A stretch of 14,406 nucleotides of DNA from Tannerellaceae bacterium. Its GTDB lineage: Bacteria > Bacteroidota > Bacteroidia > Bacteroidales > Tannerellaceae. A program made the translations under genes and the position numbers. Within the stretch, counting starts at the first letter, position 1, and each line of letters opens with the position of its first letter. The stretch is from positions 1 through 14,406 of the forward strand of contig JAITHO010000127.1 of the NCBI GenBank assembly GCA_031279915.1, read 5' to 3'. The notes beneath the pieces were generated by a model that did no database searches, was not told where the DNA came from, and saw only the letters and a program-made list of their open reading frames with translations. Shown here one piece after another: positions 1,679 through 12,490 of this stretch.

Positions 1679-3043
1679 TTATGTTTCGGCATGGCTGCAG
1701 TTGTTGGAGCCGTCTTTTCGGATGGCTTTTTTCAGGATAAAGTAGCCCAGAACGCCGCCTGCAATGGATGCGGCGAAGATTCCTAGCTTGGATTGCACGA
1801 AGTGCGCTGGCTCGTCGAAGGCAAGCGAGGTTATGAATATCGACATTGTGAAGCCGATGGAGGCAAGCATCCCGATGCCCATCAAATACTGCAAATTCAT
1901 TCCCTTAGGATACTTGGCGATCTTGAGCTTCACGAGCAAATAGGTGGTGCCAATCACGCCGAGGGGCTTTCCGACAAACAGTCCGAGGGCTACTCCGAGG
2001 GCTACTGATCCCGTCCAAAGATCGGCATGTACCTGAAAGGGCACTCCTGCATTGGCTATGGCAAAAATGGGCAGGACTATGAATGTGGCTATCGGATAAA
2101 AAGCGTGCTCAAGCCGCTGAAGGGGCGGAATGGCGGCATTTGTATCTTTCTTGATCGTATCGAAAATATGTACCTGCTCCTCCGAAAGCGTGCTGCGATC
2201 GTTGAGCTGGATGAGGTTAAGGCGCGTCAGCTGGGCGTTAAGCCGGTTGATGTAGCCGCGCGGATTGATGCGAACGTCGGCGGGAATGGTGAAGGCCGAT
2301 ATCACCGCGGCTATGGTGGCATGAACTCCTGACATCACGAAGGCTGCCCACACTCCGGCGACGCCAAGTATGGCATAAAACAGCAGGTTCCGAACTCCCA
2401 TCTTGTTGCCTATGAACATTGTTCCGGCAAATAGGAATCCGTAGGTCAGGTTTATGATATCTATTTTAGATGTATAAAACAGGGCGATGACGACAACGGC
2501 TCCAAGGTCGTCAACTATGGCCAGCGCTGCCAGAAACACCTTGATGGAGGTCGGCACCCGCTTCCCAAAGAGGTATAAAACGCCCAGGGCGAACGCAATA
2601 TCCGTGGCCATCGGTATCCCCCAGCCATTCGATGCCTCCCCCGTTCTGTTCATGATATGATATATTAAGGCCGGCATCAGCATGCCTCCAACGGCCGCTG
2701 CAATAGGCAGAATCGCCATCCGAAGATTCGACAGCTCACCCTCTACAAACTCGCGCTTGAGCTCCAAACCTACGACGAAGAAAAATATTGCCATCAAACC
2801 ATCATTGATCCAGTGGTAGATGCTAAATTCCAGATACGAAACTCCGTCGAATCTGAATCCTAACTTATGTTGAAAAAATCTGAAGTAATCTGCCGATAGC
2901 GGAGAATTTGCAAAGATGAGGGCGATTAACACGGAGGCTCCCAGCACAATTCCGCTCGATTTTTCCTGCTGGATAAACTTGTGAACCGGCTGTACGAACT
3001 TGTCTATAAGATATTTTTTTTCGTGACCTTCCTGTTGCTCCAT
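1679..3043 (-). CDS. nhaA: Na+/H+ antiporter NhaA
   Basis: This 454-residue polytopic inner-membrane protein exports Na+ (or Li+) in exchange for H+, supporting pH and sodium homeostasis. Family hallmarks are visible: FFFVVGLELKREFVEGEL near residue 87, PMATDIAFALGVL with the conserved Asp near 148, LAIVDDLGAVVVIALFY with the essential Asp pair near 178-179, PLQRLEHAFYP near 306, IFAIANAGVP near 326, and FVGKPLGV with the conserved Lys near 358. The protein is longer than E. coli NhaA (388 residues). The extra length is mainly a hydrophilic segment at about 255-305 plus short terminal extensions. The chosen ATG is preceded by a good -7 box. The gene stands alone between the tonB pair and the palindrome array. 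I see no clear terminator after it. Confidence 0.96.
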   Translation of the reverse strand: MEQQEGHEKKYLIDKFVQPVHKFIQQEKSSGIVLGASVLIALIFANSPLSADYFRFFQHKLGFRFDGVSYLEFSIYHWINDGLMAIFFFVVGLELKREFVEGELSNLRMAILPIAAAVGGMLMPALIYHIMNRTGEASNGWGIPMATDIAFALGVLYLFGKRVPTSIKVFLAALAIVDDLGAVVVIALFYTSKIDIINLTYGFLFAGTMFIGNKMGVRNLLFYAILGVAGVWAAFVMSGVHATIAAVISAFTIPADVRINPRGYINRLNAQLTRLNLIQLNDRSTLSEEQVHIFDTIKKDTNAAIPPLQRLEHAFYPIATFIVLPIFAIANAGVPFQVHADLWTGSVALGVALGLFVGKPLGVIGTTYLLVKLKIAKYPKGMNLQYLMGIGMLASIGFTMSIFITSLAFDEPAHFVQSKLGIFAASIAGGVLGYFILKKAIRKDGSNNCSHAET

Positions 3044-3070: not shown

Positions 3071-3102
3071 CAAAGATATTCGCTTGCTTCGGCTTTTGCA
3101 AT
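3071..3102 (-). promoter_or_regulatory. Probable nhaA promoter
   Basis: On the minus strand, TATCTTTG (3071-3078) matches the Bacteroidota -7 consensus TAnnTTTG. ATTG (3099-3102), 20 bases upstream, is one base off the TTTG -33 element at the expected spacing. The -7 box is 27 bases before the nhaA start codon. Confidence 0.6.
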
Positions 3103-3239: not shown

Positions 3240-3714
3240 CAATTCATATAGTGAATCAGCTAAAAACATTTCGTTCGCACTGATTCAGCTGCTGTATTAG
3301 CTGAAAATATTATTACGGAATCAACACACATGTTGTATTAGCTTCAAAACTATATTTTCAATCAATACATCTGTTGTATTAGCTTCAAAAACTATATTTC
3401 AACTAATACATATAATGTATTGTCATCAAAAAATTATTTTGATGCCAATACACCTGTTATATTAGCTTCAAAAATTATATTTTCATCAATACATATCATG
3501 TATTATAACCAAAACATTATTTTGGCGCCAATACATATATTGTATTAGCCTCAAAAGCTATATTTTCATCAATACATATCATGTATTATCCTCAAAACAT
3601 TATTTTGACGCTAATACATGGTATGAATCAAGACGGAAAAAGGTTTTACGGCTAATACATAACATGAATTAGCTACGAGCACAGCTTTTTCATCCAATTC
3701 AGATAGCGAATTGG
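3240..3714. repeat. Phased array of 12 degenerate palindromes, period 41-42 bp
   Basis: Twelve short inverted repeats have centres at about 3249, 3291, 3329, 3372, 3413, 3454, 3496, 3538, 3579, 3621, 3662 and 3704. The clearest are AATACAT/ATGTATT pairs at 3405-3421, 3488-3504 and 3571-3587, AATACA/TGTATT at 3364-3380 and 3530-3546, and CCAATTC/GAATTGG at 3694-3714. Arms change on both sides together in several units. Between the main palindromes are two alternating spacer types: one begins AGCTTCAAAA and ends TATTTTCATC, the other is itself palindromic (TCAAAA/TTTTGA). In the middle of the array the true unit is therefore a dimer of about 83 bp. The region is very AT-rich. It is non-coding and is not CRISPR-like, because the spacers are related rather than unique and no cas genes are present. 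Function is unknown. Confidence 0.9.
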
Positions 3715-3841: not shown

Positions 3842-3877
3842 TAAATAAAAAAGCGCCGGCCCAAATGAACCGACGCT
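3842..3877 (-). terminator. Intrinsic terminator of eno
   Basis: Read on the minus strand, AGCGTCGG (3870-3877) pairs with CCGGCGCT (3852-3859) through 8 base pairs including one U-G wobble. The loop is 10 bases, and the stem is followed directly by TTTTTTATTTAT. It lies about 107 bases past the eno stop. It would stop eno transcription before the palindrome array. Confidence 0.8.
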
Positions 3878-3983: not shown

Positions 3984-5342
<1,359 letters not shown>

Positions 5343-10249: not shown

Positions 10250-12490
10250 TTATTCCAGATTTTCGTCGATAGCTTCGATTTTCTTGACGAGCAATTTTAT
10301 CTCATCTTTTAGCTTTTCGATCTTCTGCTTCAGTTCTTTCAGTAGTCCTCCCCCACCCTTTGAGGAAATGCTCAGGAAGCCGATGTTGTTCTCATAAGTT
10401 TGGAGGTCGAGTTTGAGCCGTTCGTAAGCCCGCATTAGCTTTTCGCGCTCGCCGTAGAGTTTTCCTTTACCTCTTTCGCTGAGCTCTCCGATTGTGTTGC
10501 GATACATTTGGAGTTTGCGGTCGCTCTTGTCGATTTTCATGCGTTCGAAGTGTTCGTCAAGGATTGCATTGTAGTCGGCCACCAGCTTTTCTTTTTCTCT
10601 GAAGGGCACGAATCCGATGGCGTTCCATTCGCTCATGTATTCTCTGATCAGCTCCATAGCTTCATCAGGCTGTAGATTTTCGTCGATAGCTTTGAGCTTT
10701 TCTATGATCTTCTTTTTGGCTGCGAAGTTCTGTGCTTCGTTTCCTCTATGCTCCGACATGGTGCTGTTTTTGCGTTCGAAGAAGTAATCGCAGGCTGAGA
10801 TAAATCGCTTCCAGATCTGTTCGCCAAATTTGCGCGGCACGGAGCCTATGGTTTTCCATTCCTTTTGCATGGAGATGAACTTCTCAGTTGCGGCTTTCCA
10901 ATCGGTACTGTCTTTTAGCGCTTCGGCCGTTTCGCAGAGGGCTGTCTTCAGTTCGAGATTTTTCTCAAGCTCTACTTTCAGCTCTTTGGAGTAATCGTTT
11001 CTGTTTTTGAAGAAGGTATCAACGGCTCTGCGATAGCGTTCGAAGAGTTTTGCATTGACTTTTCTGGGAGCGAAGCCCAGGGTTTTCCACTCGGCTTGGA
11101 GGTTCATGATCTCCCTTTGCTGTGTTTCCCAATCTCTGAGGGTTATGAGAGTGGAATAATCGATGGCTTCTACTATTTCGCAGATCTCGCTTTTGCGTTC
11201 TTGGCTGATTCGTTCTTTTTCCTTTAAAGCTTCGAAATGGGTTTGATGACGCTTGTTGATAATCGTTGAAGCGGCTTTGAATCGTTGCCATACTTCTTCG
11301 CGCAGCTCTCTGGATACCGGGCCTGTATCGCGCCATTGGAAATGGAGTTTTTGCAGCTTGCGAAAGGCTTCAACCGTATCCGTTTCTTCGAGCAGTTTCT
11401 CAACCGCTTCGCATATTCCCAGCTTTGTTTCGAGGTTTTTCCGGAAATCGTAGTCGCGCAACTGGTGATTTATCTTAATGATATCGTAAAAGCGTTCATT
11501 ATAGATCTGATAATTTTTCCAGAGCGTGTTGGCATGTTCTTGCGGAACGAGTCTGATTTCTTTCCAGCGCTGCTGTATTTCCTTAAATTCATTGTAGAGC
11601 TTGCCGAAGTCGTCGGTGCTTTCGGTGAGCTGCTTCATGCGATCGATGAGCTGTAGTTTAAGGGCGTAGTTGGCGGCTTTCAGTTGTTCTTCTTCAGCGT
11701 GCTGGAAGGCTTTTTTTCCGCGATAAACACTCAATATTTCTTTTAATTTGGTTTCTTCTTCGCTTTCGGGAGCTTGGAAATCTTCTTCATTGCCTCCGTC
11801 GCGAAGGAATTGTTCCTTCAATTTTTCGGTTTCAATATTTTGAAGCCTGTAAAATGATTGCTTCAGAGCATCTATATCGGCTTTGCTTGCGCTTTGTGAG
11901 TTGACGAGTTCGATCAGCTTCTCAAGGGTTTCCTCTTTGCTCAATTGCTTGGCGGTATCGTCGGATTCTGCGGGATCTATGGATTCCGTAGGCTCCTCGG
12001 ATTCGTCGGATTCGTCGGATTCTGCGAGCTCTATGGATTCTGTTGGTTCCTCGGTTTCGTCGGATTCTGTTGGCTCCTCGGTTTCGTCGGTTTCGTCGAA
12101 TTCTACGAGCTCTGTGGATTCCAGCTCCATAGATTCTGCGGAATCTGCGGGCTCAATAGATTCCATAGCTTCCGTGGGCTCCTGATCGGTTGTTGGGAGA
12201 GGGGCCTCGGCTTCGGGTGTTTCGGATTCCAAGCTTGGAGCGGCTTCAGGAGTATCTTCTGAATCTTGATTGCTGCTTGTTACTATTGTGGCCACATTGT
12301 CGGGGGGATCGCAGGTTTGGGGAGGTTCTTCCGTAACGGTTAATACTTCCGATTCTGTCGGGTTATCTACTATTTCCGTGGTTTCTTCAGAGGATTCCAG
12401 GGTACATTCCGGTGTGGCTTCCGGAGTTTTAATCTCTTCTAATCTAGCCTCTTCTTTCTCGGGCTGATCAGTTGCTTGAGTGTCCATCAT
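10250..12490 (-). CDS. DUF349 multi-repeat protein with acidic N-terminus
   Basis: This 746-residue protein has no signal peptide or membrane segment. Residues 1-180 are strongly acidic and low in complexity, with recurrent PTES, ESDE and SESEE units. From about 290 to 655 there are five DUF349-type helical repeats, each with a core Trp and a following G/R-x-x-P: QQRWKEIRLVP (306), HFQWRDTGPV (383), QAEWKTLGFAP (465), QKEWKTIGSVP (542) and MSEWNAIGFVP (619). The C-terminal 90 residues are charged and coiled-coil-like, with a GGGG hinge near 712. The family has no established biochemical function that I can state with confidence. Two adjacent ATGs (12490 and 12487) could each be the start. A TATATTTG box lies 29 bases upstream. 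The ATP-grasp-like gene follows after 4 bases. Confidence 0.9.
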   Translation of the reverse strand: MMDTQATDQPEKEEARLEEIKTPEATPECTLESSEETTEIVDNPTESEVLTVTEEPPQTCDPPDNVATIVTSSNQDSEDTPEAAPSLESETPEAEAPLPTTDQEPTEAMESIEPADSAESMELESTELVEFDETDETEEPTESDETEEPTESIELAESDESDESEEPTESIDPAESDDTAKQLSKEETLEKLIELVNSQSASKADIDALKQSFYRLQNIETEKLKEQFLRDGGNEEDFQAPESEEETKLKEILSVYRGKKAFQHAEEEQLKAANYALKLQLIDRMKQLTESTDDFGKLYNEFKEIQQRWKEIRLVPQEHANTLWKNYQIYNERFYDIIKINHQLRDYDFRKNLETKLGICEAVEKLLEETDTVEAFRKLQKLHFQWRDTGPVSRELREEVWQRFKAASTIINKRHQTHFEALKEKERISQERKSEICEIVEAIDYSTLITLRDWETQQREIMNLQAEWKTLGFAPRKVNAKLFERYRRAVDTFFKNRNDYSKELKVELEKNLELKTALCETAEALKDSTDWKAATEKFISMQKEWKTIGSVPRKFGEQIWKRFISACDYFFERKNSTMSEHRGNEAQNFAAKKKIIEKLKAIDENLQPDEAMELIREYMSEWNAIGFVPFREKEKLVADYNAILDEHFERMKIDKSDRKLQMYRNTIGELSERGKGKLYGEREKLMRAYERLKLDLQTYENNIGFLSISSKGGGGLLKELKQKIEKLKDEIKLLVKKIEAIDENLE
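11957..12172 (-). repeat. Degenerate repeat tract encoding the acidic region
   Basis: Within the DUF349 gene, residues about 107-178 are encoded by imperfect repeats. On the plus strand these appear as recurring TCGGATTCGTCGGATTC and TCTGTTGGCTCCTCGG units. PTES occurs at residues 140-143, 149-152 and 167-170. The tract could vary in length by slippage. Confidence 0.7.

Follow-up and report, generated by a model that had tools for sequence, protein, structure and literature searches.

BIME and REP arrays are dispersed, intergenic and built of palindromes in alternating orientation; they are tied to RAYT (a Y1-type transposase) and are not known to be locked to a period of four helical turns. 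The arrays treated here are likewise dispersed intergenic palindromes of alternating orientation, and a Y1 transposase is absent from the 19 Pfam families listed for DUF6261, the protein family with which they are associated. A further candidate for comparison comes from Porphyromonas gingivalis, which belongs to the Bacteroidales. The BrickBuilt minisatellite-MITE of this species has a 23-nt unit with a transposable-element leader and tail, and it resembles our arrays in forming intergenic tandem repeats at several places of the genome (PMC4596501). Its 23-nt unit differs, however, from the period of 41.36 bp found here, and the main text of that paper nowhere mentions '41 bp'.

The nearest analogue in presumed working would be sopC (parS) of the F plasmid, the site of SopB (ParB-F), in which a 43-bp repeat occurs twelve times and every copy contains a 16-bp inverted repeat to which a protein dimer binds (PMC9178275). 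Like sopC, the array in the window (i.e. the whole 14,406-nt stretch of DNA analysed) is a tandem array whose repeats are close to 43 bp long and contain inverted repeats, but the two differ in protein family, number and setting. While sopC is a plasmid partition site with its own parA and parB, the arrays here are many, lie beside ordinary chromosomal genes and comprise many dyad types per genome. Neither parA nor parB adjoins the window array, whose two neighbours, nhaA and enolase, both read leftward, and the 19 Pfam families listed for DUF6261 (26 proteins) do not include ParB. In the open-licence literature such arrays were not found described, and a report elsewhere is possible. A preliminary description of the locus missed that the array is one of many and is tied to the DUF6261 gene family.

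Geometry and surroundings of the window array

The window array (Table 1) comprises 12 dyads of the AATACATnnnATGTATT type, each with 5 to 7 of 7 arm positions paired. Its phasing, as proposed in the preliminary description, is well supported: a chain of 11 centres at 41/42-bp spacing yields 64 of 77 possible arm pairs, compared with 37.7 +/- 1.9 (maximum 45) in 1000 dinucleotide shuffles. The irregular intervals of 38 to 43 bases given there were not recovered, all steps being 41 or 42 (41, 41, 41, 41, 42, 41, 42, 41, 42, 41, 42; mean 41.36 bp). Chaining accepted any step from 37 to 45 and only mildly penalised departures from 41.5; a repeat search without spacing penalty led to 41/42 steps too, and the array was also recovered independently by TRF and the repeat search. 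The TRF consensus taken alone fails a perfect-arm test (arm 6, p 0.41), and it is not among the 29 of 100 array consensuses that pass the perfect-palindrome test (p <= 0.05).

Table 1. Position of the array, its dyads and the neighbouring features in the window.
Feature	Position	Strand	Remarks
nhaA (Na_H_antiport_1)	1679..3043	-	first gene downstream of array
TAnnTTTG box TATCTTTG	3071..3078	-	ahead of nhaA; array lies upstream of box
Palindrome array	3240..3714	.	12 dyads, 41/42-bp spacing, half-site consensus AATACAT / ATGTATT
Dyad centres of the array	3249, 3290, 3331, 3372, 3413, 3455, 3496, 3538, 3579, 3621, 3662, 3704		
Edge dyad AATTCATATAGTGAATC	3241..3257	.	1 mismatch to GATTCA type of same-genus genome G017
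Dyad, zero mismatches to AATACATNNNATGTATT	3405..3421	.	centre 3413
Midway A/T-tract dyad, example CAAAAAATTATTTTG	3427..3441	.	centre 3434
Dyad, zero mismatches to AATACATNNNATGTATT	3488..3504	.	centre 3496
Dyad, zero mismatches to AATACATNNNATGTATT	3571..3587	.	centre 3579
Edge dyad AATTCAGATAGCGAATT	3696..3712	.	centre 3704
Terminator-like hairpin	3852..3877	-	after enolase, before array
Enolase ORF	3984..5321	-	opposite flank of array

Midway between the main dyads lies a second dyad, CAAAA..TTTTG, which is formed by A and T tracts; the repeating element of the window array is therefore a half-unit of about 20.7 bp that alternates in orientation. The end units deviate most from the rest. 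Half-sites of the AATTCA/TGAATC type occur near both ends (3249, 3290, 3621, 3662, 3704), at 3290, 3621 and 3662 in a single arm only; in another array of the same genome (C107), one dyad of this type (2823) is interior. The near-identical repeats and unique spacers of a CRISPR are not found, as dyads and linkers of the window array both vary, in agreement with the earlier exclusion of such an array.

The box ahead of nhaA, of the form TAnnTTTG known as the Bacteroidetes -7 element, is 171 bp away from the nearest dyad centre. Such boxes are found 11 times in the window (7.8 expected), one of them, likewise on the minus strand, inside the array (3345-3352), and terminator-like sites twice in the region (1.1 expected), the second inside the array. 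Rfam yielded no match for the array region at gathering thresholds. A phage or plasmid origin of the region was considered and dropped: phages gave 0 matches and plasmids a single weak one (Arcobacter, E 6e-3, 6% of query). The window holds no DUF6261 ORF, and its array is accordingly a stand-alone one. Elsewhere in the window, 9-, 27- and 54-bp tandem repeats (11958-12103) occur in a 746-aa ORF (10250-12490) with a long E/S/T-rich start, and 73-765 and 818-1513 are adjacent paralogues, of which the first matches TonB_C and the second looks alike by eye.

Related arrays and the DUF6261 gene family

Searching the rest of the genome for the dyad, as the preliminary description had suggested, revealed three further AATACATnnnATGTATT-type arrays in the source genome (G000) on contigs C107, C116 and C121, which emerged from a DNA search combined with a scan for the dyad pattern. 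When one mismatch to AATACATnnnATGTATT is tolerated, 20 of the 21 forward sites belong to the four arrays, and at up to two mismatches 39 forward sites were counted vs 7 for the reversed control. One of the four arrays is linked to DUF6261: that on C116 (L009), which has its dyad in common with the window array and lies directly before a DUF6261 gene (PF19775). Among five AATACATnnnATGTATT-type arrays, one of them from the same-genus genome G017, the 47 steps are 41 (29 times), 42 (16), 43 (1) and 40 (1) bp, weak end units included. Identity between these arrays is 0.77 in the arms, 0.61 in the A/T tracts, 0.40 in the flanks and 0.32 in the loop, where the arms are favoured by the picking of units through dyad matches and the A/T tracts played no part in the picking. 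With half-sites and A/T tracts similar from array to array while loop and linkers drift, the earlier suggestion of a binding platform with all dyads on one face at four-turn intervals is still the best reading.

The comparison with relatives proposed in the preliminary description had a mixed outcome: a DNA search of 60 genomes matched G000, G017 and, with one match judged to be due to chance after reading, G048, whereas arrays are present upstream of nhaA in some relatives (see below). Pattern scans produced 12 stretches in genome contigs and 7 in viral contigs; L032, L034, L035 and L041 (read) as well as L044 and L049 (TRF) were judged unrelated, and L040 is probably an array of the G017 type. 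A GC-rich, REP-like palindrome of the GGAGATTCCCGCC..GGCGGGAATGACC type was seen beside arrays in both genomes (L009 1745-1870, L010 5785-5835, L015 6230-6360, L081 2480-2615).

The association of genes and arrays was first reached through a dyad covariance model and then through protein searches, which revealed a strongly expanded, highly paralogous family with 33 DUF6261 (PF19775) matches in G000, 44 in G017, 40 in G009 and at least 52 in G061. Arrays of 41-42 bp and varied sequence lie upstream of many DUF6261 genes. Indeed, 46 of 51 DUF6261 genes have a 40-43-bp array upstream, whereas among other genes the figure is 60 of 530 (Fisher p = 8e-33), the 51 being those of 57 kept gene calls with 400 bp upstream and the other genes including divergent neighbours of the same arrays. 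Under a looser test the count is 54 of 62 DUF6261 ORFs, four of the eight lacking an array being cut by the stretch end. Similarly, the histogram of tandem-repeat periods peaks sharply at 41-42 in 828 kb of G000 and G017, mostly chosen around DUF6261 genes. In 37 of 55 DUF6261 cases a TAnnTTTG box separates the array from the start codon (4.4 expected from mononucleotide shuffles), so that the arrays tend to lie upstream of promoters.

The 103 arrays examined include 48 stand-alone ones, that of the window among them. In 76 of the 103, less than 20% of the bases lie within called ORFs; in the other 27 the share is at least 20%, and all were kept in the counts. At least two arrays sit in DUF6261 coding tails (L130 8088-8242, L183 8217-8384). 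Similarity of proteins and similarity of array units are correlated among 52 gene-linked arrays (rho 0.228, reached in 0 of 2000 permutations), a relation that shared descent alone could produce. G000 and G017 have 17 DUF6261 pairs that are reciprocal-best; for 14 of these an array is present in either genome, and pairs above 60% protein identity have units that, by eye, are mostly alike.

Loci cut from the best matches of family-wide and order-wide PF19775 searches extend the association beyond the genus. A 40-43-bp array is present at 19 of 26 family-level loci (three more, with upstream DNA too short, excluded) and at 20 of 26 loci at the level of the order Bacteroidales (those of G000 excluded). 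Among the genomes sampled, 39 of 59 at family level and 15 of 148 at order level have PF19775 itself, G000 being counted in both. In Prevotella nigrescens (NZ_CP082843.1), repeats of TGCCGAAGTTCGGCA extend into the start annotated for a DUF6261-family gene (WP_004367630.1). An IMG/VR contig carries a DUF6261 gene with an array, and a 4.2-kb 'Bacteriophage sp.' scaffold has a DUF6261 gene and no array.

The density of arrays follows the number of DUF6261 genes across 18 genomes (Spearman 0.85). Six DUF6261-rich genomes (at least 33 matches) contain 5-15 arrays per 100 kb, irrespective of coding status, three genomes with 9-12 DUF6261 genes none in 80 kb, and nine DUF6261-free genomes of the same family, three of which share the genus of G061, none in 517 kb sampled. 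The stretches sampled either lay apart from DUF6261 genes or were evenly spaced (G061 and G027 at even steps); G000 was sampled without the contigs on which DUF6261 genes were listed, and the stretches of the remaining genomes were hand-chosen. In G061, a single contig of 3.01 Mb, 30 arrays were counted in 200 kb, again irrespective of coding status. As the arrays occur where DUF6261 is abundant, and often just before DUF6261 genes, this large class, scattered through certain Bacteroidales, suggests an unrecognised protein-DNA system.

In the open-licence literature, DUF6261 (PF19775, a family of no assigned function) was found named only in a streptococcal daptomycin study. Searches of Pfam, PHROGs, PADLOC and PDB recognised no DNA-binding domain in it. 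Pfam assigned PF19775 to all 26 members searched and 18 other families to one member each, the best of these being CIS_TMP (E 2e-4), with HTH_16 at E 0.08; PHROGs, PADLOC and PDB gave weak single or partial matches only (best E 9e-4, 0.01 and 0.009, respectively). The PDB profile matches to MecA (E 0.009) and ypjD (E 0.23) are partial and were set aside, and a single-sequence structure model, in which alone the protein looks helical, is unusable (pLDDT 42). The core is acidic, with a median net charge of -6 in 62 proteins. The C-terminal tail of many DUF6261 proteins consists of proline-rich repeats, e.g. DTTNPPAPDTPPQ (for example in L135, L140 and L153).

Array units within and between genomes

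Eleven genomes have an nhaA match. Arrays are found at this position with a 41-bp period in G000, 42 bp in G017 and G002 and 21 bp in G003 and G005 (only 217 bp of upstream sequence were examined in the latter), and a 21-bp repeat is located about 0.9 kb upstream of nhaA in G011. No array was seen at nhaA in G004, G009, G007, G013 and G006, the last three having an nhaA match of only 39-40%. The 21-bp period upstream of nhaA in G003 and G005 (L090 953-1367, and L089) equals two helical turns.

The best matches in G017 have 81% identity for nhaA, which by eye is preceded by the same TAnnTTTG box, and 52% for the C116 DUF6261 protein; the latter and its G017 counterpart are reciprocal-best (46% over a longer alignment). 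In G017, the nhaA array and the array of the orthologous DUF6261 gene both carry GATTCAnnnnnTGAATC instead of AATACATnnnATGTATT, the core motifs GATTCA and AATACA differing at 2 of 6 positions. These arrays hold 8 of the 15 forward GATTCAnnnnnTGAATC sites of G017 at up to one mismatch (5 at nhaA, 3 at the DUF6261 gene), and the other 7 are single sites on other contigs. The GATTCAnnnnnTGAATC pattern has 9 forward matches in G000 (control 2), of which the arrays of C107 and the window hold three, and the GATTCA-like units of G000 may be remnants. The concerted switch, a single case, would most simply be explained by a shared trans-acting factor of changed specificity. G017 also has an AWACAT array (C6), and no DUF6261-linked array of the AWACAT type was found in its 83%-complete assembly.

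Within genomes, some stand-alone arrays clearly have units in common with one that is gene-linked (L180 with L162, L131 with L150, L133 with L138, L140:1 with L135). At least two repeated 8-mers are shared with a gene-linked array of the same genome by 27 of 48 stand-alone arrays, vs 17 of 48 for the other genome. Over all pairs of arrays the contrast is weak: two or more repeated 8-mers are common to 109 of 2673 pairs from one genome and to 99 of 2580 pairs taken across the two genomes. Of the 14 pairs with eight or more in common, 12 come from a single genome. Clusters from blastn among arrays were set aside in favour of dyad patterns, since common period and A/T tracts possibly drive them. 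In G061, a gene-linked dyad, TTTGCAGNATTCCTGCAAA (up to two mismatches), has 39 forward and 60 reverse matches, some sites being matched on both strands, at 17 loci; every step within a locus is a multiple of 41 bp, and the reversed control has 0 matches. Among the 35 DUF6261 places listed of the 52 matches in G061, one adjoins a TTTGCAGNATTCCTGCAAA locus.

Possible roles of the arrays

We lean slightly towards a DUF6261-array system in which DUF6261 would bind the arrays and to which the window array would belong as a target site standing alone. The window array would then be the target of one DUF6261 paralogue within an undescribed set of protein-array pairs. Each paralogue, alone or with a partner, may recognise its own half-site; dimers would occupy the dyads, all on the same helix face, and would bind cooperatively over the length of the array. 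Such a protein could act on the next promoter and so control its own gene as well as distant arrays, here that of nhaA, and arrays of the same type may be brought together in space by it. A more far-reaching version is conceivable but rather doubtful: Bacteroidales with expanded DUF6261 would hold dozens of distinct protein-array pairs, each paralogue having some ten dispersed four-turn arrays and its own dyad. Together these pairs would address the chromosome as a multi-coloured system, through regulons or spatial bridges, and a change of protein specificity would be accompanied by a concerted change of the dyads. This version is made less probable by the small excess of unit sharing within genomes.

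Another dimeric regulator or nucleoid protein might bind the arrays instead, with DUF6261 as a regulated partner, adaptor or anti-factor that does not touch DNA. We think this somewhat unlikely, yet a DNA-binding partner is a serious rival given the acidic core and the lack of a recognised DNA-binding domain in DUF6261, and the A/T tracts between the dyads would suit a protein that senses curvature. However, one general protein leaves the many unit types unexplained, and unit sequence varies by array and tracks the DUF6261 paralogue, although shared descent could yield this relation as well. Unlikely, too, and to a greater degree, is that the arrays are satellites, selfish or neutral, which a DUF6261-dependent process makes or amplifies and which lack a regulatory role, their symmetry being an inverted duplication of the 20.7-bp half-unit. 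Any tandem palindrome array automatically yields a second dyad midway, the end units of the window array deviate most, and arrays exceed DUF6261 genes in number (cf. the sampled 200 kb of G061). Positions are nevertheless conserved (in 14 of the 17 reciprocal-best pairs, and in part at nhaA), half-sites remain similar whereas linkers drift, all but two of the 47 steps measure 41 or 42, and two unlinked loci show the same difference in their dyads between G000 and G017.

The preliminary description had further proposed that both arms of the dyads change together and that the array may be transcribed as a chain of hairpins. A role as RNA now appears very improbable. As RNA, the minus strand does fold much more stably than its shuffled versions (z -9.3), which is to be expected of any palindrome array, and promoter-like sites inside the array are present in about the number expected by chance. 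But the supposed co-change of the arms finds no support: the covariation score and its value in shuffles are both 0.068 (251 of 500 shuffles reach it), and 84.8% of cells are paired vs 83.9 +/- 0.6% (42 of 500 as high), in an alignment of 39 two-unit rows from five arrays in which neighbouring rows share a dyad. Besides this want of compensatory change and of an Rfam match at the gathering threshold, a terminator-like hairpin precedes the window array and a promoter-like box follows it, as one does between array and gene at 37 of 55 DUF6261-linked loci. The phased target site of a DUF6261 system is the reading that we slightly prefer. If true, it would provide a testable role for a family of no assigned function, and genomes like G061 would, by extrapolation, hold several hundred undescribed elements; moreover, natural pairs of paralogue and dyad would let recognition code, cooperativity of phased sites and co-evolution of protein and target be studied together.

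The notion of a mobile cassette of gene and array is weakened by the conserved positions. Some mobility is possible, as DUF6261 is found near a mobilisation gene and on a contig from a viral collection: a DUF6261 gene with array lies near mobC in the P. nigrescens record (L220 5839-6792) and another is on the IMG/VR contig (L222 2157-2909), which hints at carriage by mobile elements. Finally, G003 contains long composite arrays with several dyad types per run, such as GTAACCGTTAC and GCACACnnnGTGTGT (L085 2423-3480, L086 900-1350).
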